Source: Chrysophaeum taylorii
Taxonomy: Eukaryota; Sar; Pelagophyceae; Pelagomonadales; Pelagomonadaceae
Reading direction: 5' to 3'
DNA length: 64,000 nucleotides
NCBI GenBank assembly: GCA_029834535.1
Contig: JAQMWT010000260.1
Span: 1-64,000 of the forward strand
Both the position numbers and the translations under genes were made by a program. Each line of letters opens with the position of its first letter. Position 1 is the stretch's first letter. The notes beneath the pieces were generated by a model. It was not told the DNA's origin. It did no database searches and was given only the letters and a program-made list of their open reading frames with translations. Shown here piece by piece: positions 25,724 through 64,000 of the stretch.

Positions 25724-26046
25724 TGTGGCAGTAACGCCTGCCACCTGACTTACCCTGATTGTTGTTGCAAAGGGACCTTGCAATTATGGGGGGGGGTGTC
25801 ATCTTGACATCCGCGCTTCCACTGAAGAACCCAATGTACCGGGCATTTTTTGTATTGCTTTTTTTTGCTGTCTTCTTGCTTGATTATATATACCCTCTTT
25901 TGATTGTTCGTGATGGCGTGAGGTGGTTGCGCTGAGATCGAGCGTGTGGGTGGTGGTTTCGCCGGGCGGGTTGTTGGGAGAAAAAAGGGTTGTTGAGGCC
26001 TCGGCGCCAAGAGGGGCGGGTATCTGAGAGAAAAACCACCACTACA
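25724..26046 (+). repeat. 5' LTR of the gypsy element
   Basis: Starts TGTGGCAG, ends ACTACA. It matches 35251-35596 along its full length, apart from insertions near the start and a CTTT microsatellite present only in the 3' copy. It is followed at 26048 by TGGTCTCAGAAA, which resembles the usual primer-binding site for initiator-methionine tRNA (TGGTATCAGA...). Confidence 0.8.
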
Positions 26047-26047
26047 G

Positions 26048-26100
26048 TGGTCTCAGAAACGGCGGCGGGAATCGATAGTCCAACTCCCGGACTATCGATC
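26048..26100 (+). promoter_or_regulatory. Primer-binding site and leader hairpin of the gypsy element
   Basis: The primer-binding-like TGGTCTCAGAAA (26048-26059) is followed by a perfect 11-bp inverted repeat, ATCGATAGTCC / GGACTATCGAT (26071-26081 and 26089-26099), with a 7-nt loop. A strong hairpin directly after the primer site is where dimerisation or packaging signals sit in LTR elements; that role is an inference. Confidence 0.5.
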
Positions 26101-27379
26101 GATCTCCTTGTTTTTCGGCGGCGAGTCGGTTCGGTTCGTAACGGTCGAGTGAGTGCGAAGCCGGCGCATTTTTTTGTGGGTGAAGATCCAGGGGATCACG
26201 GGTACCGCCGCGGGGTTCATTTTACGTGATTCGGGTCGAACGGGGAGCGGACTTGTTCGTTTTGGCAGCATATCGTAAGATCTGAGTAGAACCCAGCGCA
26301 AGCCCTAACCTAGCTCGCGCGAGGCAGACCACCTCCCTGACGGCGAGCGACAGCAGCGGGAAGGCCGTCCATAGTCCTTCACGCGCAAGTCAAATTCTAC
26401 TACCGTAAGTCCAGCGCACCGGTACGCAGTCAGACGGCTGCCGGCAATTGTCGTCTGACGAAAAGGAATACAACAAGCGAGTTGTGAGCGTTCGGATTAG
26501 TCTTATTATCCGGGCAAAAGCGTGGTCATGGCAGAGAGGCCAATGACAACAGAACGACCGCAGTGGTTTCGGGACGCATAGGAGCGTCTGCAACGATTCA
26601 GTGCCTGCAGGGACTCCATTTGCGTCTATTGGAAGAAGAACACCGCTCAGCACGCCCTTTCAACGGCCGGAAGCCGAGGAAAGCGGCATCAGAAGAGAGG
26701 CAAGATCATGTCTGAGAGCCTCGACAGCCCCCCAAGCGTGCGTGATCATCCTTCCGGATCCACGCGCCGGCGAAGGGGGAGCTACGTAGGTTGCGCCAGA
26801 CGCAACTTCAAGACCGGGCGAGCCGACGTTCCCGTGCGCACGACCCTACGAACGTGCGATGACTACTACGGAGTCATCTCGAGCGGAACCCGGACCGTTT
26901 ACAGCGATGCGTGGACCAGAGGAGAGTGCACCTCCTAGGCCACCATTCGCGAATACGAGAGTTCCGCCAGATTTTCGCGTGGATATCGACCCCGAGGAGG
27001 TTCTGCAGACTATCGCCGAACGATTCGAGATGTGCCAGTCGCGCAGCTCGAGCAAGTCCTACGTGAAATTGAGCGCACCCGCCGCGACGCGCAACAACAA
27101 CGCTCAGAAGTGGAGCGGCAGCGGATCGACAACGATCGACTTCGACGAATGGTGGAGGAATCCACGCGGGCGCATGCTCGAGAGGCACGGCCAGCCTCTC
27201 CGGATGCTACGCGTGTTACGCCCGAAGAAGATGACGCTGTATCGGCACTGACCGACGATCAGCCACCGCGAAGTCGACCGGAGCCTACCCCGCAGCATCA
27301 TACTGACCCCGGTTCAGCACGTCCTCGTAACGAAGAAGATATACTTCGGATCAAGAAGGGAGCTGCTGGTATGACTCGT

Positions 27380-28190
27380 ATCACGTTTTCGAATCTCAGT
27401 GGGCAAATTACTAAGGACCGGGAGGAGGTGGACGCGTGGTGGATGCAATTGCGGCGTATGATGGAAGGCAGAATTGACAAACCCTCAATAGCGATGAACG
27501 TGATCTGAGGCGAGTATCAACTCGCGCCCCTATGGAAGCTTATTATCGCAAATGGGAAGCTGAACGATGTGGAAACAATACAAGGATGGGACCATCACAC
27601 TGAAAGAGTTGCGCCAGCATGATGAGGACTGTCTGGATGCTATGCAATAGGCGACGAAGCTTCCTTGTCCACCTCGGGCTACGGTTGAGGAGCTTGAACG
27701 TGAATGGTTCAATTTACGACAAGGGAATTTGCCATTGAATAAGTATATCGCGCGATGGGTGCAGAAATTCGGCCAGTGGAGAGCAATGTCAGGTCGCGAT
27801 ACTGATCCTGCTGCGTTCCGTTCGCACTTCATTGCTGGGCTCAATTCTGAGCGCTTGCGGACGAGCGTCGAACTTGCTCAGGCCTCACCCCATATGAAAT
27901 AAAGCATCTACTCTCACGCTCAATGATGTCATTCAATTGACCATCCAGATCTCCAAGATTTTAGAAGCCAACCCTACTGTCAACATCAAAGAGGCGATTA
28001 AGAAGGAGAAGGAGCGCGCACCACGGATGAGGAGAGAGCAGCAGATGCAGCAGTTGCAGCCAGTACAACGGGTTTGGTTGTGTTCCTGACTCGGGATTTG
28101 GAACCTGGCTACCACAAGGGATAGATACCAATACGCGTCAAGCAATTATGACGTGCCTTAGTTGCGGCCGGCATGGTAGTTTTTACCACG
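27380..28190 (+). pseudogene. gag region of the gypsy element (capsid and zinc knuckle)
   Basis: Capsid-like code lies at about 27380-27890, with WWMQLRRMMEG and LPLNKYIARWVQKFGQWRAM as in retrotransposon gag domains. A zinc-knuckle-like CLSCGRHGSFYHD follows at about 28152-28190. The upstream 26.5-27.4 kb part is a Gln/Arg/Glu-rich, probably coiled-coil N-terminus. It is a fossil and belongs to the element at 25724-35596. Confidence 0.65.
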
Positions 28191-29129
28191 ACAACGGTGT
28201 GCCGGACAATCCCTCGAGGAAGGGACGTGCTGCTCAGACGTTGACGATTGCGGGTTTTCCAGCGACGCCAGAGGGACAGGAGCAATACCGACGGGCGCTT
28301 TTAGCTGCAGCAGGACAGGCTTCGGTGACTCAGCAAGCGCCGCGCGTTGTACAACAGCCGCAGGTGGTCTACACGGCAGCACAGGTGCTGGGTGCAGGTC
28401 AACACCAGTTGGTTGCAGGCACTCAACAGCGTTTGGTTGCAGGCACTCAACAGCAGGTGATCCGAAGGCAGCCCGCAGTGCAGCGGACCGCTCAGACCTC
28501 GGTGCGCCTGGAGGATTTGACTACGGCTCTCAACACGATGAACTTGATTCGTCAAGCACGGCAGACGGCTCCAACGGTTGGAGGGCAACAGCCGCAGAGA
28601 GCAAACCCCCTAGCCAGCGCAATGATGGTGTCGCCGCTCAGTGGTTTGAAGTGCTTGGTGAAGACCAGGATGACGCTAAGCGAGCGGACTACTGTACTGT
28701 GCAGTATTATGAGCTCATGGAGGGTAACGTGAATGACGGTGACGATGACGATGGTGGAGGCGATGATGATAGCTTCTCTGCAGAAGGCTATTCCCCTGGT
28801 GACCCCATGGAACCTCCTTCCTTTTTGGTCATCACTGAAGATGCGTGGGTGGAGGAGCAGGAGCAAAGTACCGAAGTGACCCGAGTTGCACCCAGAGTTC
28901 CCGCGGAAGACGAAGATAATCGTGACGGATTGGGATATACGATTGTTCGTGTGGGACAAGATACCTTGGTTGCTATGGATATAGTGCCACCGAGGGACGA
29001 CTGCGCCGAGCGTTACGCCGCTCACCCTTCCATCTCTTCGGATTTCGAGAGTTTCTGCCCTCAGACTGCGTTGAATACCACTCAGGATCCCGACCATCGT
29101 GAAAATAAAGCCGTGAGGTACGATGGCAC

Positions 29130-29530
29130 GAGATCCGCCTCTTTGACGTATGTGCGTGTGGCTGTCTCTTCGCTAGATGGTTCGAAATATTCCATCATCG
29201 CTGCCGGTTTGGATGGCATGGCTGATTCCCCCTACATCGAACACCGCTTGTATCGCAAACTTGATCATGACGGCAAAATCATCTATCGTCAGCCCCTCCC
29301 TACGATTCGTACTCTGAATGGGTCAGGAGGTTCGGGAGCTGCTATTCGAGAATGGGTCATTCTCCGGATCTCTTTGGTGCCAACGACATCCATACTGCTC
29401 ATGTTCTTTGTTGGTCAAACTAATGGGCAGTTACTATTAGGAGCACGAGAATTACGACTCTTGGGTACGATTGTGGATTGTGCAACAAAAAGAGCTATTT
29501 TTCGGCGTTCTGAAGTGACCATCGGAGTTC
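29130..29530 (+). pseudogene. Aspartic protease region of the gypsy element
   Basis: Code resembling a retropepsin of gypsy elements: an IIAAGLDGMADSPYI stretch near 29190-29240, at the place of the active-site loop, and QLLLGARELRLLGTIVD near 29430-29480, matching the conserved C-terminal block (LLG, then a hydrophobic D). It is carried in an open frame that starts around 28651 with an acidic Asp/Glu-rich lead-in. Identification is by position and pattern and is moderately sure. Confidence 0.55.
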
Positions 29531-30244
29531 TCGAGAATCGGACTTCTGCCTCGCCACAAGACCAGCATGGAGTTGTGCTTTACAATGATGCATTCGATGC
29601 GACTCCGCAGGTAGTGCAGATGTTCCAGACAGCTAAGCTCGCTATACAATACGGGAATATCCAAACTTGGACGCCAGTTGGTAAACCGTGGAGTTATGAC
29701 AGTCTGCTGCGCTCTATTCGTGCCAGAGCGAATCACCATCATGCTCATCGCGGTGATCAGACTGCTGGAAAAGCGGAAGACCAACTTGAATGCCCTGCAG
29801 ACGAGGAAGATATCATCCCTCATGTCGCGTACGTGACGAGTACTCGATTTCTTGTTCCAAGCCAACCGTACTTCTTGGAGATGGAGTGCGATGTGCCGCT
29901 GGAAACTGGTCAAGTATTCCGACCTCATCGGTAACTCCTCCCAGATCACCGCCTCGTACCTGGCTCCTATTCATCGTATTGCTCCGACTTGCCCAACGAA
30001 GTTCGTGTGGCCGTGGAGCACATTGGTGAAGAACCCATTGGTATCGACCCCGAAGTCCCGGTGGTCGAAGGCGAGATCATGCCGCATGAAGGATGTGTCA
30101 ACATGCAGCTAGAAGCCATTGAGGACGTTTGTCATGCGACTCTCACGGCTGCTGTTGACGAGAATGAAGACGAGGAGGATGTCTTGAGTGACAGACCTCC
30201 TCCTCGGCCACCTCCAGATGAAGAAGTGAAAAAAAACACCAGAA

Positions 30245-31540
30245 ATGGAGATGGAGGCGACCGCTAAGGAGCTGCTATCTAAGCACGCCTCCTTGGTTTG
30301 GATACCCATCACCTACACCTTTGTCGTCGTCTACTTTGCTGGCGCTGGAGGATCAACGTTGGGTATCTGGCGATGCAATGAGCTATATGGCAGTTCATTT
30401 CGCATTGTCCTGGCTTTGGATGCTTGTCCTCAAGCCCGAGCCACCTTTGAGCTCAATTTTCCGAAGATTCCCTATGTTTTGCATGAGCTGGGGAAATCTC
30501 ATCGTCGTACATACGACTTGGTGTTGTCATATTTACATTCAGATTTTTGGAAGCATTCTTCTTATTTTCACGCAAGTCCGCCGTGTATCTATGGGTCGAC
30601 TGCCAATTTGCACTACAGGGACGCACGCAAGGGCGCTACTATTACTTCTTGGGTCCTGCGTCATTTCCGCAACGCACCTTATGTAATTGGACGATGGACG
30701 CTCGAGGAGGAACCATCAGTGATCCCTTTTGTGCATCACCAATATGATGTGCCGCGCATTGTCGATTTCTATAGTATCACACCAGAGTTGCTGTGCTCGC
30801 GCACGCGCCTACTTGCGTGCATTGTTCGCTTGAACCTGCCGCTATTATCGCGTGTACCACCGAATTTAAGGGACCGTTTTGGCCCAGCGTTGGGATTTAC
30901 AGGTGGTCACCCGCTCATTATAGTGAACAGTTTCTCATCTACGCGCCCGGCTATCGGCCCTGCCTTCACGGTGACGCGCAACAAATTGCAGATGGGACCT
31001 CATTTCTCGAACACCCGTCCACTCACGTTGCAGATGCACCAGGAAATTATGACCGTTCCTGCTACGTGGCAATGGGGTGAGAAAGTTTCAGAGACAGCAG
31101 CTATGAAGATGCTTGGCAGTATGGTGCCACCCGCGACTATGACGCGGATCGCGCTAGCAGTGCACAATTCGTTTGACCCTTCACTTCGAAATTTGGGTAA
31201 GTTGCGGAATATTGCGACGACTACGATAGCCCAACCCGATCACCATATTTTACGGTTTTTGCCTTTTGCTGTCGAGTCGCGCATTCCAACGCTCGACCCT
31301 GCCACTCGAAGTGTGTCATGGATCTCGCCCGATGACCTCTACTCTCCTGCGAGTCCTGCACCATCAGCTGCTGCCCCCGCCACCCCGCCACCACCTTCGG
31401 TTACATCGCCTGGGACGGCTCAATCTTTTGCAGGGGGCACCGTCGCCGCTGCTGTTATGCAGAGCAACCAAGCCGAACAACCAGCCCTCCGCAACTGCTG
31501 GAGAAGAAGGCACCGCGAAGGAGCGACCTGCGTATTTTGA
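30245..31540 (+). CDS. Cytosine-C5 DNA methyltransferase carried by the gypsy element
   Basis: An open frame of 431 codons. Residues 28-310 show the ordered motifs of C5 methyltransferases. Motif I is YFAGAGGSTLG (30332-30364, SAM binding). Motif II is ALDACPQARATFELNFP. Motif IV is the catalytic SPPC loop at residues 111-114 (30575-30586). Motif VIII is SRTRLLACIV. A TFTVTR-like recognition segment near residues 240-246 comes before RPLTLQ (motif IX) and MLGSMVPPATMTRIA (motif X, about 31109-31153). The last 80 residues are proline/alanine-rich linker leading toward the RT. The expected activity is transfer of a methyl group from SAM to cytosine C5 in DNA. It probably acts on host chromatin or on the element's own copies; that is inferred. 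Host DNMTs are nuclear and usually larger. Confidence 0.85.
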   Translation: MEMEATAKELLSKHASLVWIPITYTFVVVYFAGAGGSTLGIWRCNELYGSSFRIVLALDACPQARATFELNFPKIPYVLHELGKSHRRTYDLVLSYLHSDFWKHSSYFHASPPCIYGSTANLHYRDARKGATITSWVLRHFRNAPYVIGRWTLEEEPSVIPFVHHQYDVPRIVDFYSITPELLCSRTRLLACIVRLNLPLLSRVPPNLRDRFGPALGFTGGHPLIIVNSFSSTRPAIGPAFTVTRNKLQMGPHFSNTRPLTLQMHQEIMTVPATWQWGEKVSETAAMKMLGSMVPPATMTRIALAVHNSFDPSLRNLGKLRNIATTTIAQPDHHILRFLPFAVESRIPTLDPATRSVSWISPDDLYSPASPAPSAAAPATPPPPSVTSPGTAQSFAGGTVAAAVMQSNQAEQPALRNCWRRRHREGATCVF

Positions 31541-31649
31541 TAAGTACGACGTTCCGTGGGCGAACGCGCCTCACGACGAACATGGTCAACCTTTACCGGT
31601 GATGCCTCCTCATTTAGCGGATCAGGAGAGCATGCAGGTCATCCCTCCG

Positions 31650-33010
31650 ACCGTCGCGCAGGTCGAAGAGGTGATGACTGAATTGGGTATTACAGAGCAT
31701 CCTGCTTTAGATGACGAGGAGAAGCTGATGATGAAGCATCTAATCTCGTATTCGTGGGCATTTTTCGATGATGTGATGAGACCTGTTGATTCACCTGAAG
31801 TGACGCTCCGGTTCAAAGAAGAGAACCCGACTCCCGTCAAACTCTCGCCATATTGGTTGTCGAAAGAAAAGATTGGATGTTTGCGGATGCAGATTGAAGA
31901 ATGGACCCGAGACGGAGTTATTCGTCCTGCGAATTCTCCATGGGGTTTTCCTATTTTGATGTTGCCTAAGAAAGGCGCTGAGACTGGCACTTCCAATACT
32001 TACAGGGCAGCTGTCGACCTACGGCGCCTCAACACATTGCTCAAGGATGATAGCTGGCCGAGTGTGAGCATGGCTGGCGCGTTGATGTTTCTCATCGACA
32101 AGTTCTGTCGTTCCAGTTCGGATATTCGTTGGGGCTATCACAATTTACGATTGTCGCTAGATGCACAAGATGTGGTCACCTTCACTCGTCCTCTGGGAGC
32201 GTACAGCTACATGCGTCTACCTTTGGGAGTCAAACCAGCCGGACGTTTGTTTTGCAAGCAGTTGAACACTGACTTGTCTCGAAATGGCTATATCGTGATC
32301 TCGCGGCATATATCGACGATATTCTCGCCGGTCACGCGGATACAAAGAATCACTTGCAGTGCCTTGTGCAAGTTATTCCCCATCTCGCCTTGAAGGGGTT
32401 CAGCGCCAAGATCAAGAAGATTCATTTTATGCAAGAAGTCATTGAGTTTGTGGGTCATTTATCTACCCCGAGCGGACTTCTCCCATCACCGAGGTCTTTA
32501 GAAGCCATCAGACACATGCCAATTCCTGGCACTTTGTCGGATGCTGACCCTAAGAAGCAAGTGCAGTCTTTCCTTGGAATGGGGAGTTTTTGCCGGCGTT
32601 ATGTAAGGAATTTTGCGAAAGTTGCAGAGCCATTAAGACAACTGACGTTGCCGGACGTGAAATTCAAGTGGACGAAAGAGTGTCAGGAAGCTTGGGATGC
32701 CATCATCGAGGCTATTGTCACTTCGAAGGGTGTCTAACATCCTAATTACTCGTTGCCTTTCTACATTCGAACTGATGCTTCCGCGCATGGGTTGGGTGCT
32801 TACCTATTTCAAAAAGTACCAGTCGTTGACGACGATGGAAGAGAAAGAATAGAAGAGAGAGTTATTGAGAACTGGAGTCGAACCGTGCCTAAGTCGATGA
32901 GGAAGTATGATCCTCGGCGCTTGGAACTCCTCGCAGTACTCTCCGCTCTTGAAAATTTCCGATTTTATATCGAAGGTCATCATCAGACGAAGTTAGAGAC
33001 GGATCATCGT
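31650..33010 (+). pseudogene. Reverse transcriptase and RNase H of the gypsy element
   Basis: RT blocks run in order from about 31840: LSPYWLSKEKIGCLRMQIEE, GVIRPANSPWGFPILMLPKK, a YRAAVDLRRLN block (about 32000-32035), DIRWGYHNLRL, and SYMRLPLGVKPAGRLFCKQL (about 32205-32270), the latter matching the conserved FGL-AP-FQ block. RNase H follows with FYIRTDASAHGLGAYLFQ (about 32758-32815) and LETDHRNLTF (about 32995-33020). The order RT then RNase H before integrase is that of Ty3/gypsy. Fossil. Confidence 0.8.
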
Positions 33011-33549
33011 AATTTAACGTTTTCTGCGGGATTCGAATCATACGTCTGGACGGTTAGCACGATGTGCTATGCGGCTTGCTGCGTTCGACCGGGAGCTAGG
33101 ATACAAACCTGGAAGCTCCCCTGGCATGCGTATTCCGGATTGTCTGTCGCGCAACCCTATCGACAAATTGATCGAGAAAGATGAAGACGGGGAACCGATC
33201 AATGAAGCTTTTTTGATTTTCCAAGAAATCCCCACCGATGTACCTGGCACAGCTTGTTTCACGTTCTCTTCGGTGACGATGCCTACACCGACGGACAGCG
33301 GACCCACCGCAGCTATGGTAGCAGTCAGTACGCGACACAACGTACAACCGCCTCAATTCTCGTACGAGTCTGAGCCAGTTGACTCCGTCGAACGTCTTCC
33401 TTTTGCGGATCGAGCGGAGGATGAGATCACTCTCGATGAGATAGCGAAAGAACAAGCTGAAGATGACACATGCAAGCGCATCAGACGAAATCTCGTGATT
33501 CTGAACAGAAAGATCAAGACGAGCAATCATTCGTACCTTGTATGAAGTT

Positions 33550-34700
33550 GATAACAACGTGTTGTTGTATAAGGTCGATGATTCGGATTCTCAACGTCTT
33601 GTTGTGGTCCTTCAGTCTATGCGAAAGCGTGTGATCGCCATGCATCACGGTGGATTGTTCGGAGGCCATGTAGGACGAGACTCCACAGCGAATCAAATCT
33701 TATAACGGTATTGGTGGCCAAACGTACGTCTCATCGTCAGTTAATAATGAGTTCGTCAATGCCTGCACATTATTTGCCAGAAGATTCGATCCACCATGCC
33801 TAGGCGTTATGGCTTGCTCTGTCAACCGAATCGCGTCGGAGATTGCTATGTCCCAGGTATGGATCTGATTGGACCTCTGCGAGGCGCAGACCTGCAAACG
33901 TACACACTCGCAACGTACGATGCAGCATCGCATTTCTTGAAATTAAAGCTCTGATCGACACAAAACATGACTATTCCATTTTGAAAACGCGTTTTTGGAC
34001 AAGATTTTACTTGAGGGATGTCGTCTCCCACGGTGGTGGTGCATAGTCACGGATAATGGAAATGAGAGTTCGCGAAACAGGTAATTTATTTCGCACGTTT
34101 GTTCGTCAATTCAACGCACGTTATCGTACTACTACCCTTCCGTATCACCCTCAGAGTAAGTAACCACACTGAACGTGTCAACCGATTTATCAAAGCCTTC
34201 TTGCGAGCTGCGATCGATGAACCGCTGACAGCCAGATTGGTCGAATTTCATCCCATACGTGGCATTTATGTACAATAGGATGTACATTCCGGGAAGAACG
34301 AAGATTTTTTACCTTTCATGATGCGTACTGGCAAGCAACCCATGTTACCGCCCGATTACAATTCTTTTGAGTGAAGAGCGTGATCTACACCGCAATCACG
34401 TCATCAGATTTTGATGGACTTTAAGAACAAGTTTGAATTTTATAATCGATTCGTTACACGAGCTCACCGCAAAGCACAGGAGAGTCAAAAAAACTCAACT
34501 ATGATGCCCACCAAATTGACATCCAGTTTTTTTTTGTCCAGGTGATTAATTATGTTCGTGCCTAAGACGCGCCACAAGCTACATCCCATTTGGCGCGGGC
34601 CTTACGTAGTAGTTACCAGAAAGATCTCTCCCGTCGTTTACGAAATTCAGGACGTCAACAACGATGATATGCTGATTCGGTTGTAGTATCTGTACAAGCA
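33550..34700 (+). pseudogene. Integrase region of the gypsy element
   Basis: The zinc-binding HHCC start is suggested by AMHHGGLFGGHVGRDST (about 33640-33690). The core begins with MDLIGPLRGADLQTYTLATY (about 33860-33920). The C-terminal module KLHPIWRGPYVVV (about 34577-34615) matches the GPY/F motif common in gypsy integrases. Fossil. Confidence 0.65.
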
Positions 34701-35250
34701 ACAGATTTGTGCCTTCTTTGAAAGTGCCAACCATCGACATTTCTTCAGCCCCTCTGCATTTACCTTCAGGCCGTTTCTAACGTGGTAAGTTCGTGATTTT
34801 TTTCAGGGTGAAAGGACGATCCAACGCGTGGAAGAAGCGTATCTATGATGGTGCCGAAGTCTACGAAGAAGAATACGATCAAGACAATGATACAGTTGCG
34901 CTTCACTACTATACCGATTTGGGACCGCGCGATCGATGATCCTCGTGTTTGTTTTTGATCCTACACTAAGCCTCTGGCTGAGCGACGTTTAAGACCAGAA
35001 TACAAAGACGGAGGTAGCTTCACACGCCTACGACGACCAAACATGGAGGGCTGTGAACCCTGTGTGACTGATTTTCGCCGGGATGAAATCGACGTCCTCG
35101 TCACTAACTTGAGCCTCCACAGCAACAAAGTTCCTGCTGCTGATGTAGCTGACCGAGCTTATCGTGTACCATTCGTGAGCGTGTGGACCTTCGTCCGTCA
35201 CCCTTCAAGTCGAGGACAACTTCATCATCTCAAGTAGGGGGCTCCTCTCC

Positions 35251-35596
35251 TGTGGCAGCAACGCCCATTCCCCCCCACTTGCTTGCCTGCCACCTGACTT
35301 CCCCTGATTGTTGTTGCTCTGGTACTGACCTTGCAATTATTGGGGGGGTGTCATTTTGACATCCGCGCTTCCACCGAAGAACCCAATGTACCGGGCATTT
35401 TTTGTATCGCTTTCTTTCTTTCTTTCTTTCTTTCTTTCCCTCATTTTGATTGTCCGATTTTCGTGATGGCGTGAGGTGGTTGCGCTGAGATCGGGCGTGT
35501 GGGTGGTGGTTTCGCCGGGCGGGTTGTTGGGAGAAAAAAGGGTTGTTGAGGCCTCGGCGCCAAGAGGGGCGGGTGTGTGAGAAAAACCACTACTAC
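35251..35596 (+). repeat. 3' LTR of the gypsy element
   Basis: Partner of 25724-26046. Directly upstream, AGTAGGGGGCTCC (about 35233-35245) is a purine-rich stretch at the place of the polypurine tract. A (CTTT)n run occupies about 35410-35437. Confidence 0.8.
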
Positions 35597-35599
35597 CTC

Positions 35600-36885
35600 G
35601 TATTGCCGTCCGTTGCATCACAAAAGACCGTTTAACGGTCTTCTGGAGAAACGAACGGACCGATGATGAGACGCGGGCCAGCTCGGTTTCTGATGATCGA
35701 GAGCAAGGGGACGACGCAGACGCAGCGAAGGAGGACCTGCGGCGTCGCGCAACGATCGGCCATTTCGACGACAAGAGTACCGACGAGGCCCCGCGATGGC
35801 AACAAATAAAGTGGGGAAAGCAGATGACGGACCGCGGCGCGAGTCGATTCTTTCGCTCTTTGCGGCTCGAGGCGACAGATTCAGCGCTCGCAACGTGGCG
35901 ACCGCCGCGCACCGCGACGCCAAATTGTCGCGGGGTCAACAAAAAATCCGTAAAGCGAGCGCCGCGTCGAGAGCCGCGTTGATAAGTGTCGACGCCGCGT
36001 CGGACAATTCAATCCGAAGAGCCTCGCCAACGCGGCGTGGGGATTCGCGGCGGCGGATGTTCGAGCGCCCGAATTTTTTCGCGCCGAAGCGGCGTCGTCG
36101 CGGTTGGGCGAGTTCAAACCGCAGGAGCTCGTTAACACGGGTTGGGCCTTCGCGACGCAGGGGATCGAGGCACCTCAGTTTTTTGCGGCGATCGCCGGCG
36201 CCGCTATGTCGCGGCTCGGCGAGTTCAATCCGGCAGGACGCTCGCCAACACGGCGTGGAGCTTCGCGAAGGCCCAGGGAATCGAGGCGCCCGATTTTTTC
36301 GACGCTATTGCCGCCCGGCCGCGCGATTTCAAACCGCAAGAACTTGCCAACATAGCGTGGTCTTTTGCCTGCGTCGACTGGACAAAGGACCCCGAGTTTT
36401 TCCTGGAGTTCGCCTCTGTCGCAGACGTCTCCATCCTAAATAATCGCGAACTTCACCTCTCGACGATCCACTTTCGTCTGACTGTGGCCAGACGACTACT
36501 TCTCGTCAGACCACCGCGTGCTGCGGGAAGCGCGTCGGGGGACCCGTCACCATCCCAGCTCCAACGCGACGTCGTCGCATTAGACCGAATTGGCTGGGTA
36601 CAGGTCTTCGAGTACGTGTCAAAAGAGGGATTGTCGCTCGACATTTTGCAACCCGACACGAAGCGGTCGAAGTCGACGGGCCATCCCACTATCTCAAAGA
36701 AACGAGAGTTGCGAACGGCTCGACGCGCTTCAAATCCAGACTATTACGGCGGCTTGGCTGGGACGTCGTCCGTATTCCGTTCTTCGATTGGTCTGCCCTC
36801 GACGGCGAGCGAGACCAAGACTCTTACCAAAGCTGAATATATACCAGCATACCCTTCCGCCGCTATCACGACGACCAAAGTTGCG
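35600..36885 (+). pseudogene. Broken repeat-RAP gene, about four repeats
   Basis: A relative of the intact gene at 48846, starting immediately after the 3' LTR of the gypsy element. The N-terminal block EAPRWQQIKWGKQMTDRGAS lies at about 35788-35847. Repeat units follow at about 36003-36390: FNPKSLANAAWGFAAA, FKPQELVNTGWAFATQ, TLANTAWSFAKAQG and FKPQELANIAWSFACVDW. The pre-RAP region (GDPSPSQLQRDVVALDRIGW, VFEYVSKEGLSLD) is at about 36540-36650, and a RAP end reading RLLRRLGWDVVRIPFFDWSA is at about 36740-36800, in another frame. At least three frame shifts separate these parts, so no full protein is made as it stands. The 20-fold drop in repeats compared with a long array argues for past recombination within the array. 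Confidence 0.7.
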
Positions 36886-36914
36886 ACGAAACCTTGAAAC
36901 AGGCACCATCTAAC

Positions 36915-39180: not shown

Positions 39181-39186
39181 GGAGAA

Positions 39187-39361
39187 CGGTTCGATAACCG
39201 TTCGAACCGTTCGAACCGTTCGAACGGTGTTTGAACCGTTCGAACGGTGTTTGAACCGTTCGAACGGTGTTTGAACCGTTCGAACCGTTCGAACGGTGTT
39301 TGAACCGTTCGAACGGTTCGAACGGTGTTTGAACCGTTCGAACGGTTCGAACGGTTCGAAC
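39187..39361. repeat. Palindrome-based satellite, CCGTTCGAACGG
   Basis: The 12-bp perfect palindrome CCGTTCGAACGG recurs about nine times, joined either directly by AACC/TTCG extensions or by GTGTTTGAA spacers, giving a main period of 20 bp. Every unit can pair with itself or with any other, so the array could fold into cruciforms. Open minus-strand frames made of it (repeating RTVQTPFER) are products of the repeat. Confidence 0.9.
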
Positions 39362-40145
39362 TGGTGCGCGCGAAAGTTGCAAAAAAGGGACTTCGCAAAT
39401 TTTGGAAACTTTGATGATCTGGTGAAGAACATCTGATCTCGCTACCCGCAAACTCTAAGCCCGAGATATTGAAGCAGCTTTTATAGCGATAGGTTTACGA
39501 CTGCACGCCGCAGATTGAATTCCAGTTTGTTTACCGGCAGAGATCGCATCATCAAACGACCTTGTCGAGTAGATTCGAGATTCTTAAGCTCCTCGCGCCA
39601 AGGCAGCGCGCTTAGGGCGTCAGAGTCCACCTCAACGGTCTAGACGAGGTTTTTTTTTTCGACGATGATGGATCGCGAGCACCAAAAAAAATGGCACCAC
39701 GACGATCCTCGGAAGAACTGGCGCGTCGTCGTCAAAACACCGCCTCGCAGTCGACGGTTGGACGACCCGCGCGATGATTGCCGTCCTCGACGACGAGCGG
39801 TCACCTCTCGGGAGGCGTCGCGCCGACTCGCCATCAAAGCTATACTACGAGCGCAACCAAAAAAAGCCAAGGCCGTCGCCGCGGCTTGGCGAAGCTGGTG
39901 ACCGCGGGCGAGACGCCCGGCGGTAGATCGAGACCGTTCGCCGACGACGACGAATCCCCGACCGCGCAGCAAACAACAACCAGCGTCGCCGCCGCCGCCG
40001 CGAGGACTGTAACGGTCGAGACTTGCAGCCCCGTTCTCAGGAGCGACGACGAGAGGGTGAGACTCAGCGCCGCGGGCATGGCCGCTACCCCGAAAGTCAA
40101 GTCGCGCTGCTCCCTCGAGCCACGCGCTAGGCACCAATATTATCG
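39362..40145 (+). other. Stretch without a firm gene; coding-like lead-in to the RAP pseudogene
   Basis: Nothing is recognised at 39362-39640. Between 39665 and 39900 an Arg-rich plus-strand frame begins MDREHQKKWHHDDPRKNWRV. It could be a diverged 5' part of the RAP pseudogene that starts at about 40146, but it has no visible match in the intact gene. Confidence 0.25.
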
Positions 40146-41020
40146 AGGCCCCGCGATGGCAACAAAGTGGGAAAGCAGATGACGGACCGACTCCCGAGAC
40201 GATTCTCTCGCTCTTCGCAGCTCGTGGCGATATATTCAGCACTCGCAACTTGGCGACTGCCGCACATCGTGTTGCCAAGTTTGTTGGAGGCCGCGATGTG
40301 CAACGCGATCGCCGCGCGATGGTCCTCGCGGACGCTCGTCGGCAGTGCATAAGATTTTTCTATCCACAGAACCTCGCCAACACGGCGTGGGCCTTCGCGA
40401 CGGCGCGCATCGACGCGATTGCCCTGGTGGTCTGGTCGCGGTTGGGCGAGTTAAATCCGCAGGACCTTGCAATTACAGCAGCGTGGGCATTTGCCTGCGT
40501 CGACTGGAAAAAGGATCCCGAGCTCGCCTCCGTTGGCGTCACAGATCTTGATGCCCTCGACGATCGCGAAGTGTCGCAGCTCCACCTTGCTTCGCTCCAC
40601 TTTCACCTCGAGTGGCCCGAGCACCACCGGAGCTTCCGGCTCTCAGACCACCAGCAGATGCTCCAGGAAGCGTATCAACGGCAGGACCCATCACCATCCC
40701 AGCTCCAACGCGACGTCGTCGCATTAGACCGAATTGGCTGGACGCCGCACGTCTTCGAGTACGTGTCAAAAGAGGGATTGTCGCTCGACATGGCGCACAC
40801 CAAGCGCGCGGTCGAAGTCGAGACGGGCCATCCCACTATCTCAAACAAACGAGGGTTTGAGAATGAGTCGACGCGCTTCTTCAAATCAAATCCCGACTGC
40901 TACGCCGGCTTGGCTGGGACGTTGTTCCTATTCCCTTCTTTGAATGGTCTGCCCTCGACGGCGAGCGAGACCAAGACTCCTACCTCCGGGCAATGCTGCG
41001 AGCTCCACCACCAGCGTAAA
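40146..41020 (+). pseudogene. Broken repeat-RAP gene, about two repeats
   Basis: Homologous to 48846-52484. It runs from the N-terminal block (EAPRWQQ..., PETILSLFAARGDIFSTRNL, about 40150-40245) through LATAAHRVAKF to one composite repeat. In that repeat FYPQNLANTAWAFATARIDA joins directly to IALVVWSRLGELNPQDLAIT, meaning the front of the first repeat is fused to the end of the last. The pre-RAP part is well kept (HQQMLQEAYQRQDPSPSQLQ, VFEYVSKEGLSLDMA, about 40648-40800). The RAP core (SRLLRRLGWDVVPIPFFEW, about 40890-40950) is out of frame with it. The open frame 40250-41107 therefore ends in non-native residues. Array collapse by unequal exchange is the simplest explanation. Confidence 0.75.
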
Positions 41021-41107
41021 ACCAAACGCAATCTTCTTCCCTTCTTCGTTTGTTTCCTCCTTTCTTATGGGAGCCTAGACAGCATGGTCCCCCCGATCCG
41101 ATTTTAA

Positions 41108-53250: not shown

Positions 53251-54649
53251 TGTGAGGAAGCTATGACACTTACCCCTGCACCACGTATCCAGTATCCCCA
53301 CGTCATTCCCTTATCGCTAGTGTAACGCCCCATTCCAGATGTCACATGGTAGCAGGTGTTCGTTCACGATCGAACCTGTGCTTGACTTCACGGCGACTCC
53401 TCATCGGTTTCCGTTCTTTGCTACATGTTCGGTTCGTTCTCGTCTCTCATGTCCTCGATCGCAATTAAAGATAGCAAGCTTTCGCAAAAACTTGATGCCT
53501 TCAGCCGTGCGCGACATCTTTTCCACCACTGGCCACGTCGTCTTGAGAACATGATATTTTCTACCGGCGATCACACTATCTCGACCAACGATTGGTTTGG
53601 ACTAGCATCTCAGCATCTCGCTGCTCTGCAGAAGCATCTCGCTGCTCTGAAGCAGATTTTCTCAGCATCTCGCTGCTCTGAAGGCGAATTTCGCGTCAAG
53701 CAACAACGTTGATATCCATGAAAACCGCGACATGAACTTCACGCGACTTTACAAGCGCATTACCGATGTCTACATGGGCCATGGGGATCGCGTAGCGAGC
53801 TTCCTCAACAAGTTCATCATCGGAGTATACAAGTTGCTCGGCATTGTACCACTCACCGGAGTTCAAGTTGCTCGGCATTGTACCTGATCCGACGCACCCT
53901 CGAGTGGGTCCTCGCATTTGACTACGTGCATCGTGCTTCACGACTTACTAGCTTTGTTTTATCGTCTCGCGTCTCGTACCGATGAATGTGGTTGTACCCT
54001 TGAGAAGTTCAACAGCAATCAATTTAGATGGCATGCACAACCACTTCTGCCGCGCTATCCGCCGCGTCGTCAGCCACAACCCCGACTTCAGACTCTTCCA
54101 ACTGACCTACCCTATACGCTCCCCTTTCCCACCAACCTGGCTCTACTCGATTCCGACGCACTACCTACCCAATGTCCTTTTGGCGGCTGCAAGGATCACT
54201 TTAAGGGGACTGCCGCAAGTTTCACAGTTCCTAGCTATTCCACGACAACGCGCTACCCACCATCGCCGTTCTTCTCAACAGCGCAACACTCCAAATGACT
54301 CCACCAACACCCAACAACACCAACCCACCAAAACCAACACCAGCAACACTACCTTTTCTGCTCCTATGCCTACTCCAACCTTGACTGATTCTAGTTCCAC
54401 TCCGCCGCTTTTCTTAATACCACCACCTATTACACCCCCCTTCACCGGCTTAAACGGCCACACCCACCGTCTCACATACATTTCCCGATACTCTATCTTA
54501 TCATCTTTGCACCTTTCTGCCAATCAAGATAATTCCAAGTCAGCGTGTGTACCGCCGAATGTCTGATGCAAGCACATCAACAACCCCATCCCACGGAAGC
54601 CCCTCGTTTTTTGTTTTTAGCTCCCATTGCACAGGCGCCCTTCGTTCTG

Positions 54650-54870
54650 TACTTTCCGCTATTCGTTGCTCAACCCCTCGTTCTGTATTTTCACCTCGTC
54701 GTTGCTCCTCTCCTCGTTCTGTATTTTCCCCTCGTCGTTGCTCCACTCCCCATTGTGCATTTTCAGCTATTCGTTGATCCACTCCCCGTTGTGCATTTTC
54801 AACTATTCGTTGATCCACTCTCCGTTGTGCATTTTCACCTATTCATTGATCCACTCCTCGTTGTGCTTGT
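54650..54870. repeat. 36-bp minisatellite within the copia relic
   Basis: Six to seven imperfect units, each containing a GTTGTGCATTTTCA-like core and ending near CGTTGATCCACTCC. The period is 12 codons, so reading frames on both strands remain open and give repeating peptides. Confidence 0.8.
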
Positions 54871-57806: not shown

Positions 57807-57960
57807 TCTTCGCCCTGATCTCTGTTGTTTTTCTTTCTTGCCACAATGCCTCTGTGACGTCTTCCTCAAAGCTTCTCCTCTGTGAGCGTCTCACTTACCC
57901 CTTTTTCCTTTTCCTTCTTTTTCCAGCACCTGTGTGAGGACCTCACTTACCCCTTTTTCC

Positions 57961-58978: not shown

Positions 58979-59047
58979 TGGACACCAGAGCTTCAGGATT
59001 TATTTCCAGACAAGCCCCGCTCACTGACGTTCCTGAACCCAAGCAAA

Positions 59048-61260
59048 ATGCCAACCAATCAAGAACTACTCCAGAAGGAGATGAAAGAACAAGAAGTTCG
59101 TTTCAAAAGAGACTTGGAACAACAAGCTCGAGCGTACGAAGCTCGGCATAAACAAGAGATGCAAGACCAAGAAACTCGCTTGATGGCTCGAATAAGTGCG
59201 TTGGCCACCCAAGTCCAAGCCAAGCAACGCAGGGGACACCACCACCTGCCGTCGCTGCTGCGGCGTCGCCTCCCACTCCGGCTCAACAAGATCCCAAGTC
59301 CAAGGTCAACACCTTTAGTGACCCCCCTAGCGCCGTCCTCAAGTCGATGGACAACGCTCAAGTCACACCCCAGATGCTTTCATTTCGCGTCATGCAATTG
59401 TTCGTCGAACATCTGATGCCGGAAACAGGCATAACTCAGTACTTCCTACAGGGCTTCTACACGTGGGAATCCGTCCTGCGCGGATCTAACGATCTCGCTG
59501 ACGCTCTCCTAAGCCACTGCATCGACGAATACGACAAGGACCCCGACAACCACTCTACCGCCGGGAACACGCCAGATTTCCAAGGCCGTTACGTCTACTA
59601 CAAGGGTGTCTACCGCAAGTTCGGCAAGCACTTCCTGGAAAACGTCTACGACACAAAACTCCAAGAACTCAAAGACCAAGACAAGGACCCAACCGATATG
59701 ACAAAAGGCAAGTTATATCCAATTACTCAACCCCATCTCCAAGGAAAAGAAGCCGACTTCATCGTATATCTCCGCGAGACTGTACACCCCCTATTTCGCC
59801 GTTTCCTACATGCCGGTAGCGACTCCGTCAAGCACCCAGCATACGACGAAATCGATGCACTCGGATCCTCCTACCCGACGTGACTCGAATTTGTGCTTCA
59901 AGTTCGCCTCGCACTCGACAAGCACACGGGCCAGAACCACATCCACCATGCGCATTATGTTTACATTGCCTTTCTGGACACGCCGTTCAACCCTGAAATC
60001 CATGAGCCAGCTCACTACATCGACTACATGCGTCATGTCCAGCAACAACTGCGCCAGATCACCACGGACGCTTCTCTCCAACTTCCCGACGACAAGATCC
60101 TCGAAGAAATTCACCAAATTCTCCGCTTCAAGTACCCCCCAAGCTTGCTTGACTCCCGCGCCCCAACACACATCAAGGGCTTTGCACGTCTTGCTAACTG
60201 TCTGCGCAATCCCAACGACTCGCTGTTACTCGACGAAGACAAGGAAGCCATCCACCACATCCACCACCTTCCTAAGCTTATCGCTCGCATCTCTGTCATT
60301 TCGACGTTTGAGCGCAACTTTTGGGCTCACCTCAAGCCTCACCCAACTCTCAACTTCATGCTTTTGCGCTTCGTTACGGACTTTGCTCGTCTGCCAACAA
60401 AGGACAAAGACAACCCCCGCTTTCGTTCCCGCCGTCACGGTCTCCACCTCACCGAAGACGATGATGACACCTCTCCCTCTGAAGAACACGACACCCCACC
60501 GGACCCCGTCGAAGACGCCGACCCCGTCGCTGTTTTTCTCACGGAGGCCAATCTTGATCAAGAGGAAGACAATGACCTTATTCACCAACTCCACGCCTAC
60601 CGCAAGAAGCAAATTTCGCGGCACGTCAAAAAGCCCCCTCCAGGCAAAATGCCTCCTAATCCTCGCTCCCCGTCTTACTACGACGTCAATGACAGTCCTA
60701 AGCCCAAGGCCACCCCTGTCACCCCACCGAAGAACAAGCACCGTCCCCGCGCTCCTCCTGTCACCCCTGACAAACGCGAGCACCCACATCTTCGCAAGGT
60801 CACCTTCCCCACACAACCTCATCCACCCAAACCATCCACTCCCGACCAACGCTTCAAGGTCCCCCTTCGTGAAGTCCGTCGCAAGCTCCAAACCATACGG
60901 AATCTTAGCCAAGCCGGTCGCCAACATACGTCCAGCTCCGAGCGTATGAACAAGCTCAAGCTCATCAACCTCATCACCACCATTTCCGATGAGATACTTC
61001 TTTCTGAAGCCGAAAACGACGCCGCCGAATTTCTCCAGATGTTAACGTCCGATCCCCAAGACGATCAACCTGATGAGGGCGAAGCCGAAACCGATGAACA
61101 AGACGACAACGGACACCTCGGTTTCTATGACGACAACGGTCAGATAAACCTCTACGACGATACCGTTCCCGAAACCAATGATGAAGATGACTCCGCCGAA
61201 GACTACGCCAAACGCCACAGTGACTACATGCGTGCTCTCCATCAGAGTCGGCTTTTTCGC
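59048..61260 (+). pseudogene. gag region of the copia-like element
   Basis: It starts at ATG with a Glu/Gln/Arg-rich probable coiled coil (NQELLQKEMKEQEVRFKRDL, about 59052-59115, continuing to 59230). A capsid-like middle follows (LPETGITQYF-type and DDKILEEIHQILRFKYPPSL, about 60095-60150). The end is a long Pro/Asp/Lys-rich region with RKVTFPTQPHPPKPST (about 60795-60842) and a very acidic end (about 61060-61230). Length (about 700 codons) exceeds usual copia gag. No zinc knuckle was recognised. Fossil. Confidence 0.5.
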
Positions 61261-61454
61261 TGATGGTTGCTGACGACGCCTGTGCCGCCAACCACACTTT
61301 ACTTCATCAGGTACCAAACCGCCAGATGACGAATTTCCCGACCTCATCAACTATTTCCACAAGAGTCGCAGATTTTCTTTGTGCAGCTTACACCCCAGAA
61401 AAGACCTCAAAGAAGACTAGCTCACTGCACGGATGCAATGGCCCCGGCACTGAA

Positions 61455-61600
61455 ACCTCATTGATTGACGGTGGCGCATCTTTTTGCTTTACGCGCACAA
61501 TTCAAAATTTTGTTCCCGAGACCATACGCCGAATTCCCGAACACACCATTCATATGGGACGAGGCACCCTCACCAGCCACTTCAGCTCTGCATGTACAAG
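61455..61600 (+). pseudogene. Aspartic protease region of the copia-like element
   Basis: TSLIDGGASFCFTRTIQNFV (61455-61515) matches the retropepsin active-site loop of LTR elements (a hydrophobic stretch, D-x-G-A-S, then an aromatic), followed by IRRIPEHTIHMGRGTL. It sits between gag and methyltransferase. Confidence 0.65.
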
Positions 61601-61929
61601 CAACCGACCCACCCCTGCCCCACGAGCCCTACCTTTATGAGCTTCTCACGTCCTCAACCTCAGACCCCCACGATTATGCGACACTTCTAGGAAAGACCGC
61701 CGTTGTACTCGCCACTCGCAAACCCAACGGCCTGTTGTCCCTGCCATCCCATCCCCGGCAAACATTCGCCACTGTGGTTAGCTTTCACACACGAAAACGA
61801 ATGTCACTCCACGATGAGATTGCTCACATCACACGTCATGTCGCAAAGACACGCTCACAATCGCACACGTTTGAATTCGCGAAGTTACAAAACCATTCCA
61901 TGTATCTTACCGAACTGCTCAACCTCCAA

Positions 61930-63560
61930 CATCCTGTCGTCCACTACGCCTTCAATGGCTCCGCAGGCCTCTCTGTGCAAACACAAACCCCTCTGCTCAA
62001 AACAGCCATTATTGCAGGCGGACTTCACCAGGAGGGTTTCGACACCTTTCGCAAACTATTCGACAAACGCCTAACTGTCGTAGTTACCTGCGAAATCAAC
62101 GATATCTTGCGCACCCGTGCGCAACACCTCTTTCCGCACGCCACGCACTATGCGGACACCTGCAAAATCAACGATATCTTGCGCACCCGTGCGCAACACC
62201 TCTCAGTGTCATGAAAGAACACGGCGGTTATGACCCTCCGGTCACCGCCGACCTCTTCGTCACCGAGCAACTCCGCTTCGTTCGTTGCACGCTCCCGACT
62301 TATACCATTGTCGAGAACGTACCTCCCAACCCCCGAACTCACCACGAGTATGCTCAACTCGCCAAAGGTTATCAGCGCTTAGGCTACTTCCGCCACTCCG
62401 GCGTCTACAATGCCTCTGCTTTTGGTGACGTCATCAGCAAGACACGCTATCTCGCTGTGTATGCCCGGCACCCGCTCACCGGCTACAACCTCGAGAAAAC
62501 CGCCTCTCCTTGGTTAACCTCGCCTCCGAGCATGGTTCCTCTCCTGGACCCCAGTCACAACATCCCTGACGATCTCTGGATCGCCAAACCCGCCCTTCGT
62601 GGTACAGTGCCCCGCTCCACATTGGACTACTACCAGCACAAGGCTACCTACTCCTACAAGCCCGCCAACGCCTCGAAACTCTCGATTTCCGAAAATGCCC
62701 GCATCTGCCAAATGCTCGCACGTCTCACCAAGCCCTTCACGGATCTCGGTCTAGATGCCGACGGCACCCCCTACGCCGTGATGGCGTCCATATCCCACCT
62801 CCTGGTTTTCACGCTCATGCACAACCATTTGTCGCAACACCCCACTCTCGCCGCTTGGAACACCATCCGCTGTTTTCATGCCTCCGAGTCTCAATGTGCT
62901 TACCATTCGGATGGAGCCATCACCGGCACCGCCGCTACTGCCGTCGCATGTGGATACTTCTCGCGCGCCTCCCTCACCCTACATTCCAGGCCCCCTCAGA
63001 TTTTGGACTGTTCCCATCAACCCGCAGTCTTCTCCCCAACGCACTCCTTTTCCCTGGATGTTCCCAAGGGCACCGCCTTTCTGGTCGTCGCTTACACCAC
63101 CTCCTTGGCCGCCGCTCACAGCTGTTCGCGCCCGTCCACTTGGGTCCACTATATGAATCGTTCGCATCCTGGCTTTGCCGCGATCGACTCACAAGGGCGA
63201 ATTGCTCTCGATGACCCCAAGGGACTCATTATGTCCAAAGCACGTCCCACTTACGCGGACTATGTCGGCCACATCGGAGACACGCTTCAGAAGAGCACCA
63301 AGTGCTACTCGGTCACTGGCTCGTACCCCACCAACACGAGCTACTCCAATGCCTTGCTGCTGATCTCTCCAGACCACATTCGTTACGCGACCCTCAACGA
63401 AATCGCAAAATTTGGACACCACTCGGACCCGGAACTGCTCCGCCTGTTCAAACAGCACCCGCCGTACTTCGCGTTCAAGGCACTGGCCAACGCCGTCCCG
63501 CACCACATGTTGCAGGCAAAGTACAGCGCTGTCCTCGCATTCCACGAATCGCACCACCAC
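61930..63560 (+). pseudogene. Cytosine-C5 DNA methyltransferase region of the copia-like element
   Basis: Ordered C5-methyltransferase motifs: VVHYAFNGSAGLSV (motif I position, about 61936-61977), VVTCEINDILRTRAQHLFPH (motif II, about 62083-62140), YTIVENVPPN (motif VI with the ENV triad, 62301-62330), and FGDVISKTRYLAVYA (motif VIII, about 62421-62465). A long target-recognition-like region follows, then RYATLNEIAKFGHHSD (motif IX, about 63383-63430) and ALANAVPHHMLQAKYSAV (motif X, NAVP at 63489-63500). The sequence differs strongly from the gypsy-borne enzyme at 30.2 kb, so the two look like separate lineages. The expected role of the family is SAM-dependent cytosine methylation of DNA. 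Fossil. Confidence 0.75.
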
Positions 63561-64000
63561 GTGAACCTTCACGTCGAATGGGCCACGATACGCCATGGCA
63601 TCCCCAGCCCCGGAGACATCAACCAGGTTGCAGAATTCTTCTCGGCCATCTCCAGCCGTCTCTTAGCAGAGGAAGACCTGAACCTCACCTCCCTCTTCAA
63701 TGCCGTTGCAGATGCTCACCATGATGCGATCCGCAAACCAAGCAAATCGACAAACCTCGAGACGCTTCTTGCCGAGGCAACCGTTGCTAAAATCCGAGTC
63801 GACAAGCGACCCAGCCCCCCCAGCGCTTCGACTGCTGCTCTGCCTCCCTTGCACCAGCCCGGCACCATTCAGCACGCCAAAAGAGTGCTTTTGGTCACTC
63901 GCTGGCACCGCATACACCACCAGCAACCCGAGATTCTTCGCCGCACGATTGCCGCTAATGTAACGAATCTCCGCCCAGGTGATGATCGGTATCTGCAAGA

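Follow-up and report, generated by a model that had tools for sequence, protein, structure and literature searches.

Why should a retrotransposon carry a cytosine methyltransferase, and on which nucleic acid would such an enzyme act? The question is raised by a locus of the pelagophyte Chrysophaeum taylorii, within a stretch of 64,000 nucleotides (contig JAQMWT010000260.1, positions 1 to 64,000; hereafter the window), where a first-pass annotation had proposed a Ty3/gypsy element with a C5 cytosine methyltransferase (MTase) frame of 431 codons between protease (PR) and reverse transcriptase (RT). Few lineages are known to have cytosine methyltransferases on retroelements, and the present case adds to the puzzle of a parasite carrying the chemistry that hosts use for silencing. 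The parts of the element are listed below in window positions.

25724..26046 (+), 5' LTR, TG...ACA, a direct repeat with 35251-35597
26048..26062 (+), putative primer binding site TGGTCTCAGAAACGG, by sequence, just past the 5' LTR
26501..28609 (+), gag region, split over frames, by tblastn with the gag codons of locus L040 (pieces of 57-92% identity)
29137..29646 (+), protease-like region (DGMAD...LLLGARELRLLG), by tblastn with the L040 region (94%), motif and position
30245..31540 (+), C5 cytosine methyltransferase open frame, domain at about 30272-31246, PF00145 at 2.7e-8, 96.6% to the L040 domain
30584..30586 (+), motif IV catalytic Cys codon (SPPC), by sequence, Cys in 29 of 31 copies
30704..30712 (+), motif VI Glu-Glu-Glu (LEEEP), by sequence, middle residue Gln in 29 of 31 copies
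30800..30808 (+), motif VIII Arg-Thr-Arg, by sequence, both Arg in 31 of 31 copies
31127..31132 (+), motif X Pro-Pro (GSMVPP), by sequence, in 31 of 31 copies
31731..32482 (+), reverse transcriptase, frameshifted, by tblastn with the L039 RT (82-86%)
32636..33184 (+), RNase H, PF17917 at 5.8e-18 on ORF 32753-33184, by tblastn from 32636
33402..35165 (+), integrase, broken, after the RT, by tblastn with the L040 and L043 integrases
35251..35597 (+), 3' LTR, a direct repeat with 25724-26046

The list of open reading frames confirmed 30245-31540 (+) as an open frame of 431 residues, and a Pfam profile search matched it with PF00145 in two stretches (E 2.7e-8), the better of which aligns residues 242-305 with profile positions 260-321. 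The score of 34 bits stands against a curated cut-off of 22 bits, so that the check proposed with the first-pass annotation came out in favour of the enzyme; phrog_116, a PHROG 'DNA methyltransferase' family, matches the frame as well (E 7.6e-10). In the canonical motif scheme, motifs I (FAGAGG), II (ALDAC), IV (SPPC), VIII (RTR), an IX-like stretch and X (VPP) follow one another in order, as had been claimed, with motif IX recognisable as an IX-like stretch only. Motif VI, absent from the earlier list, is present as LEEEP with Glu at its mid-position. The ATG at 30245 was rejected as the true start, since in other copies the frame continues from gag-PR (1815 and 2129 residues open). The final 18 or so of the 431 codons are unlike most copies: most full-length rows in the genome stop at residue 410-415, and five other rows extend to residue 431.

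At E<=0.1, PF00145 matches four of the seven members of profile A3, while the PHROG DNA-methyltransferase families phrog_363 and phrog_116 match seven and six of them, respectively; the MTase frame of L053 scores 19.2 bits with PF00145, under the cut-off, and the MTase domain of L044 has no Pfam match. Motif I, the motif IV Cys, motif VIII and motif X are present in all five gypsy representatives. In each of these motif VI reads EQE, with the Glu of the canonical ENV retained and the Asn replaced, and motif IV reads PPC followed by Ile or Val instead of the canonical PCQ.

The element spans 25724-35597, about 9.9 kb, its LTRs being some 323 and 347 bp long, and tblastn places its parts in the order gag, protease-like region, MTase, RT, RNase H, integrase. 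The LTRs and this order support both the Ty3/gypsy identity and the site of the C5-MTase between PR and RT given in the first-pass annotation. In L043 and L044 the Pfam domains likewise follow in the sequence RVT_1, RT_RNaseH, Integrase_H2C2, rve, and an integrase after the RT is the order of Ty3/gypsy. Direct LTRs were found in the window element, L040 and L039, and the stretches retrieved for L043, L044, L053 and L042 yielded none; the same 15 bases as TGGTCTCAGAAACGG also directly follow the 5' LTR of L040. The polyprotein order is gag-PR-MTase-RT-RNase H-integrase, the protease being assigned by motif and place only, as the Pfam profile search of the window gave no protease match at 29137-29646. 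At the protease site, DGMAD is read in all five representatives (L040, L039, L043, L044, L053) and in the window. Retropepsins read DTGAD at the active site, and the sequence DGMAD possibly denotes an altered one.

The copy in the window is decayed, as its PR, MTase and RT each occupy a frame of their own. Of 305 bases aligned between its LTRs, 30 are different, with gaps in addition, and inspection by eye of its flanks gave no clear target-site duplication. The window copy is thus a decayed relic of a large selected family. Elsewhere in the window, 48846-52484 holds a 1212-residue protein of tandem 'NTAWAFATA' repeats, RAP/OPR-like by eye, with shorter relatives at 36142-36897 and 40250-41107 that are linked by the repeats D3 and D5, and a dense array of GAACCGTTCGAACGGT-like units occupies 39184-39355, overlapped by an untyped ARAGORN tRNA (39281-39369) that is probably spurious. 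Across the genome, PF00504 antenna proteins give 84 rows, with runs of equal or near-equal scores on contigs C88, C539 and C390; these runs, one to few kilobases apart, are probably tandem gene copies. When one of the 84 proteins was compared with the PDB, multi-repeat LHCI chains filled the top four rows, and FCP- and VCP-type antennae were among the best single-domain matches, so that this one protein points to a chlorophyll a/c-like antenna; chlorophyll c is present in dinoflagellates as well.

Is the frame an isolated insertion? In the 70.8-Mb assembly of C. taylorii, the window frame found at least 108 rows including itself, the others at 64-96% identity; all copy counts given here are lower bounds, as only the best candidates were scored (97 of 1048, for example, with the window frame). 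Several of these matches sit inside open frames of 1400-2129 residues, among them L039, where gag, PR, MTase and RT share a single frame of 2129 residues, and L040, where gag-PR-MTase and the start of the RT lie within 1815 residues. RT rows at 63-66% identity led to the further families L043 and L044, which have a homologous MTase at the same place, L053 being a sister of L043 (MTase 81% identical). Genome searches with the MTases of L044, L043 and L039 gave at least 125, 126 and 132 rows, respectively, and the window-frame, L044 and L043 searches combined gave at least 266 assembled MTase loci after rows less than 1.5 kb apart had been merged. As a control, the gypsy MTases were compared with five host or copia loci, and nothing was found below E 0.8. 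The contig pairs C25/C521 and C10/C297 show the same features at near-identical coordinates; they probably represent alleles or duplications in the assembly, and the copy numbers may be too high as a result.

The MTase occupies the same polyprotein site in three or more Ty3/gypsy families, among which identities of 57-82% for the RT and 40-46% for the MTase were measured. Among the matches listed, an MTase row lies upstream of 104 of 150 RT rows, and inspection of 14 of the remaining 46 revealed a whole or broken MTase in seven (L055, L059, L060, L062, L063, L064, L065), a deletion in six and no MTase in one (L061). The order gag-PR-MTase-RT therefore recurs in many copies, and the frame is not an isolated insertion. 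We infer that the domain was gained once, before the families split.

The MTases of different gypsy families are 36-48% identical, and the residues that do not vary between families are the motif I Phe/Gly, the motif II Asp, PPC, both Glu of EQE, RxR, TxTR and PP. Between L039 and L040, NG86 estimates gave w of 0.04-0.09 for the MTase (codons 1261-1560), 0.40 for the stretch that directly precedes it, 0.36-0.56 for the stretch that directly follows and 0.09-0.16 for the core of the protease; between L043 and L053, w was 0.07 for the MTase and 0.03 for the RT. These estimates are rough, dS being close to 1 or higher in most windows as well as for L043/L053. Because of these dS values, a comparison of private with shared variants was added, made by pairwise projection with 17-30 copies per site; an earlier alignment, in which 12-15 of 30 copies per site were left after masking, was dropped, its MTase trend having the same direction. 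Among 30 copies, private MTase variants, in which post-insertion decay is mixed with possible assembly error, have N/S of 130/68 (w 0.62), against 23/53 for those that are shared (w 0.14; Fisher p 1.6e-7), while in the other five regions shared w is 0.27-0.42 (p 0.03 to 0.2).

When L039 is added to these 30 copies, the catalytic Cys is found in 29 of the 31, the first motif VI Glu in 30 and both Arg in all; 16 of the 31 keep all scored sites and have no stop in codons 16-330, and the sole departure of the window copy among the scored sites is the middle of motif VI. Catalytic sites changed in six of 406 cells, compared with 263 of 8729 elsewhere (29 copies against L011). The catalytic residues are thus present, in line with the first-pass annotation, and, in addition, the MTase domain was kept by purifying selection while the elements multiplied.

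Another enzyme lies at the end of the window.

58984..64000 (+), second element, related to L042 (Ty1/copia) and carrying a C5-MTase of its own, by tblastn of L042 ORFs (78-97%) and translation

This copy is decayed and cut by the window end; its MTase, at about 61.9-62.8 kb, has a frameshift near 62187 and a damaged motif IV Cys region, with ENV and KTR kept. PF00145 matched at least 57 rows in the genome (best 123 of 474 candidates scored), two of which are host genes and 55 of which fall in profile positions 12-175, unlike the MTases of the window family, whose best stretch lies at profile positions 257-321. Nine of the 57 rows were inspected and the other 48 were judged by the profile part matched; one and the same other MTase was found in seven of seven inspected loci (L003-L008, L042). 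In L042 its motifs read TLPCQ, IVENVPPN and SKTRY, with motifs I and X divergent, and the frame continues to RVT_2 with an integrase-like part between (by eye), which identifies the element as Ty1/copia; L003-L008 were called copia by similarity. The copia subgroups have w of 0.10-0.17 at dS 0.4-1.3, and the two closest pairs 0.32-0.35 at dS 0.08-0.10. Between gypsy and copia MTases hhalign detected nothing (0.06%), though it was also blind to host DNMT2 versus DNMT5 (0.19%); judging from their sequences, the two enzymes were likely captured separately. A copia-like RNase H remnant was noticed by eye at 56559-57806, and the GC skew, taken in 2-kb steps, falls to values between -0.13 and -0.34 over 54000-64000, which sets this stretch, in part copia element, apart from the remainder of the window.

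The origin of the gypsy MTase was sought in several collections. In a set of 5.8 billion proteins, where eukaryotic proteins may be sparse, no relative was found with the window ORF (7992 candidates scored), profile A1 (6737) or the MTase part of L044 (2320), nor was one found in phage records by tblastn, in viral contigs with A1 and A3, in bacterial and archaeal genomes with A3 or in the PDB with A1 up to E 1; several of these searches need shared short words or peptide patterns, which a distant relative could escape. When PDB hits up to E 10 were considered, profiles A2 and A3 reached the C5-MTases 3g7u and 8yf3 at sub-significant levels, and A3, with five hits in all, added the DNMT2 chains 9hgm and 1g55 (E 0.29-0.32); unrelated chains were among the hits (two with A2, one with A3). 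No DNMT3 chain was among these A2 and A3 hits, and a sequence affinity to DNMT3 was thus not found. DNMT2 does not fit either, as SPPC is followed by Ile or Val and similarity is not significant, and no SNF2 match occurred in the scanned element frames, so that these do not qualify as DNMT5.

Motif spacing gives another cue: 33 residues separate motifs VI and VIII of the gypsy MTase and 104-105 separate VIII and X, which is closest to DNMT3A (35 and 100), the corresponding values being 41/161 for host DNMT2, 44/141 for HhaI, 45/267 for DNMT1, 38/210 for host DNMT5 and 43/107-108 for the copia MTase. Such short spacing as in DNMT3 is suggestive only, and the cues diverge, DNMT3-like by spacing and DNMT2/Dcm-like by profile; an alignment of gypsy, copia, DNMT1/2/3/5 and HhaI sequences was unreliable between motifs IV and VIII. 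The gypsy MTase, assigned here to none of DNMT1, 2, 3 and 5, seems to be an orphan-type lineage with no relative found, 'orphan' being used as in the accessible part of PMC12344493.

The host has methyltransferases of its own. One gene is a DNMT2 (L001; PDB 1g55 'DNMT2' at 7.7e-39), and another, separate from the elements, is a DNMT5 (L041) that combines PF00145 and SNF2-rel_dom in one frame and matches PDB chain 7r76 at 2e-122, a chain listed as Rad8 that is presumably the fungal DNMT5. The human DNMT1 and DNMT3A catalytic domains found nothing in the genome (2 and 0 candidates), a weak negative as the search had no positive control.

Derivatives without the MTase bear on whether an element needs it. 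Six copies of the L039 subfamily lack it: L057, L066, L067 and L068 have one common junction (L039 positions 4553/5662), while the left edge is at 4679 in both L056 and L058, their right edge being that of the other four. Their flanks are 97.5-99.6% identical to L039. The frame is continuous through the junction (MSKE-TVPPATPPPP) in L066 and L067, L066 being open from the protease into the RT over the fetched stretch, and L057 and L068 are out of frame near it. A gag-PR deletion is additionally common to L056, L058, L067 and L068, that is, to four of the six, implying that mobilisation in trans is seemingly common in this subfamily. One L039 subfamily has therefore spread after losing the MTase, and the enzyme is either dispensable in cis in the L039 subfamily or supplied in trans.

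A methylation footprint was looked for in the private variants of 30 gypsy copies, where no excess of CpG-to-TpG changes was found, C-to-T changes per 10 kb being 45 at CpG, 44 at CpA, 57 at CpC and 46 at CpT. The window gypsy family (window, L040, L039) has a CpG observed/expected ratio of 1.05-1.09 and copia one of 1.01-1.10, compared with mostly 1.22-1.31 in non-element and host stretches and 1.54 in the DNMT5 gene, and TpG/CpA is mildly higher in the two element families; L043 (1.29), L044 (1.23) and L053 (1.20) are not CpG-poor. Flat C-to-T rates together with a mild CpG lowering amount to no strong CpG methylation footprint.

We consider it most likely, at a probability of roughly 0.5, that the MTase domain of this gag-PR-MTase-RT-RNase H-integrase polyprotein methylates the element's own cDNA. 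As RT and MTase belong to a single polyprotein, the enzyme is located where cDNA is made. Made as part of Gag-Pol, it would be released by the protease or left tethered, then packaged, and would methylate cytosines of the cDNA around reverse transcription and integration, so that a new copy might enter the nucleus with a host-like mark, sheltered from nucleases, deaminases or integrity checks, a mark that host DNMT5 may maintain afterwards. Against self-methylation stand the lack of a CpG transition excess, the families L043, L044 and L053 that are not CpG-poor, the MTase-less subfamily, and an active site that departs from the canonical ENV/PCQ in its EQE and its PPC followed by Ile or Val. 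The missing footprint would be accounted for if the substrate were RNA, the enzyme then marking the genomic RNA of the element or its tRNA primer. RNA methylation has indeed been proposed for SymbioLINE (PMC5890265, accessible part). In the present data, hhalign gave 71% for the gypsy MTase versus host DNMT2 and below 1% for the other compared pairs, and two of the five PDB chains reached by the A3 profile up to E 10, 9hgm and 1g55, are DNMT2. We nevertheless hold an RNA target to be unlikely: the DNMT2 matches are sub-significant, those in the PDB span motifs I-II and stand alongside the DNA enzymes 3g7u and 8yf3, and, since single-sequence hhalign missed DNMT2 versus DNMT5, its silence on the other pairs means little. 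Moreover, the motif IV signature of DNMT2 is PPCQPxTR, which the host enzyme carries as SPPCQPHTR and the gypsy enzymes lack.

Action in trans that targets host chromatin or competing elements could silence rivals or prepare tolerated insertion sites, and the high copy number as well as the mildly lower CpG and higher TpG/CpA of the window gypsy and copia families agree with it; as such an effect would benefit all copies, however, it is hard to select in one lineage, and again no CpG transition excess is seen, which makes it rather improbable. The non-canonical EQE and PPC-Ile/Val of all five gypsy representatives could also mean that the fold is kept for binding cDNA, RNA or methylated/hemimethylated DNA, like a targeting chromodomain and with no catalysis. 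We find this improbable, given that a pure binder need not retain the Cys, whereas none of the families compared departs at the catalytic Cys, the motif VI Glu or either Arg of RxR, and changes at these sites are rare among copies. The decay of the window copy would even suit a misread frame or a functionless piece of a host gene that a single element had picked up accidentally, an explanation whose chance is close to nil, as it is refuted by hundreds of loci, several families and purifying selection. Methylation of the element's own cDNA thus remains our preferred reading of the gypsy enzyme.

A broader and quite speculative extension, which we think unlikely to hold, is that DNA methylation is written by retroelements and only maintained by the host: with DNMT5, of the maintenance type, and DNMT2 in the host, the gypsy and copia enzymes, each captured separately, would be the candidate sources of de novo 5mC on pre-integration cDNA, which DNMT5 would propagate. 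The candidate writers differ, the gypsy lineage having the altered EQE and the copia lineage the canonical PCQ/ENV. If true, methylation could be seeded or re-seeded in genomes with no chromosomal de novo enzyme. The genome offers hundreds of loci, two enzymes with no similarity detected between them in two LTR superfamilies, families of different age, MTase-less derivatives as natural internal controls and a host with DNMT5 and no DNMT1/3 found so far, and the supply of de novo 5mC by retroelements is therefore directly testable in this alga.

How does this compare with known systems? The papers cited in the following are represented by their accessible parts. The first-pass annotation rightly named retroelement C5-MTases in Symbiodinium and Klebsormidium, carried by LINE and DIRS elements in the former and by one gypsy (Dnmt3) in the latter (PMC5890265); since KnitGypsy-Dnmt3 is already published, a gypsy-borne MTase as such is not new. 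SymbioLINE-Dnmt, SymbioDIRS-Dnmt3 and KnitGypsy-Dnmt3 are described with Ka/Ks below 0.2, and methylation of cDNA is discussed; SymbioDIRS-Dnmt3 domains put CG methylation de novo in yeast, while KnitGypsy-Dnmt3 and SymbioLINE domains had no activity there, a result judged inconclusive by the authors (PMC5890265). The same source describes Symbiodinium Copia elements as having no DNMT domain, and PMC12344493, citing the 2018 work, names 'LTR Copia and DIRS' for Dnmt3. PMC6338049 reports methylase-bearing retrotransposons, stramenopiles included, with adenine and cytosine enzymes not separated by group, so that a stramenopile gypsy DCM may be among those meant, and proposes antiviral roles. According to PMC5890265, Iyer, Abhiman and Aravind (2011) is one of two studies with rare DNMT-RT linkage, and part of the present finding may already be contained in it. 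In the accessible part of PMC3145265 nothing on retroelement DNMTs was seen, and among titles and abstract openings, with partial coverage, no work on gypsy or copia C5-MTases beyond the 2018 cases was found.

Other modification enzymes in mobile elements are an N4/N6-type methyltransferase in an Ectocarpus Sola transposon (PMC12477816) and, in orchid Ty3/Gypsy elements, a captured m6A RNA demethylase, likewise a modification enzyme but not a methyltransferase (PMC9289625). On the host side, DNMT5 is recorded in pelagophytes, diatoms and haptophytes (PMC9998398), and that of Chrysophaeum keeps its SNF2, in contrast to dinoflagellate DNMT5, which lost it (PMC12344493). Apparently new here are an MTase lineage with no relative found, the EQE motif VI and the copia-borne enzyme; the natural MTase-less derivatives are new as well, and the host lineage is probably new for a retroelement C5-MTase. 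A close counterpart, KnitGypsy-Dnmt3 of Klebsormidium nitens, is likewise an LTR Gypsy element with a C5-MTase in Pol, Ka/Ks below 0.2 and key residues kept, but its enzyme is Dnmt3-related and its repeats have a DIRS-type arrangement, whereas the elements described here have direct LTRs, SPPC/EQE and at least 266 loci. SymbioDIRS-Dnmt3 and SymbioLINE-Dnmt resemble them as high-copy retroelements with a C5-MTase under purifying selection, and the SymbioLINE enzyme is an orphan lineage, as the gypsy MTase here seems to be; their backbones are DIRS (tyrosine recombinase) and LINE, whereas those in Chrysophaeum are Ty3/gypsy and Ty1/copia.
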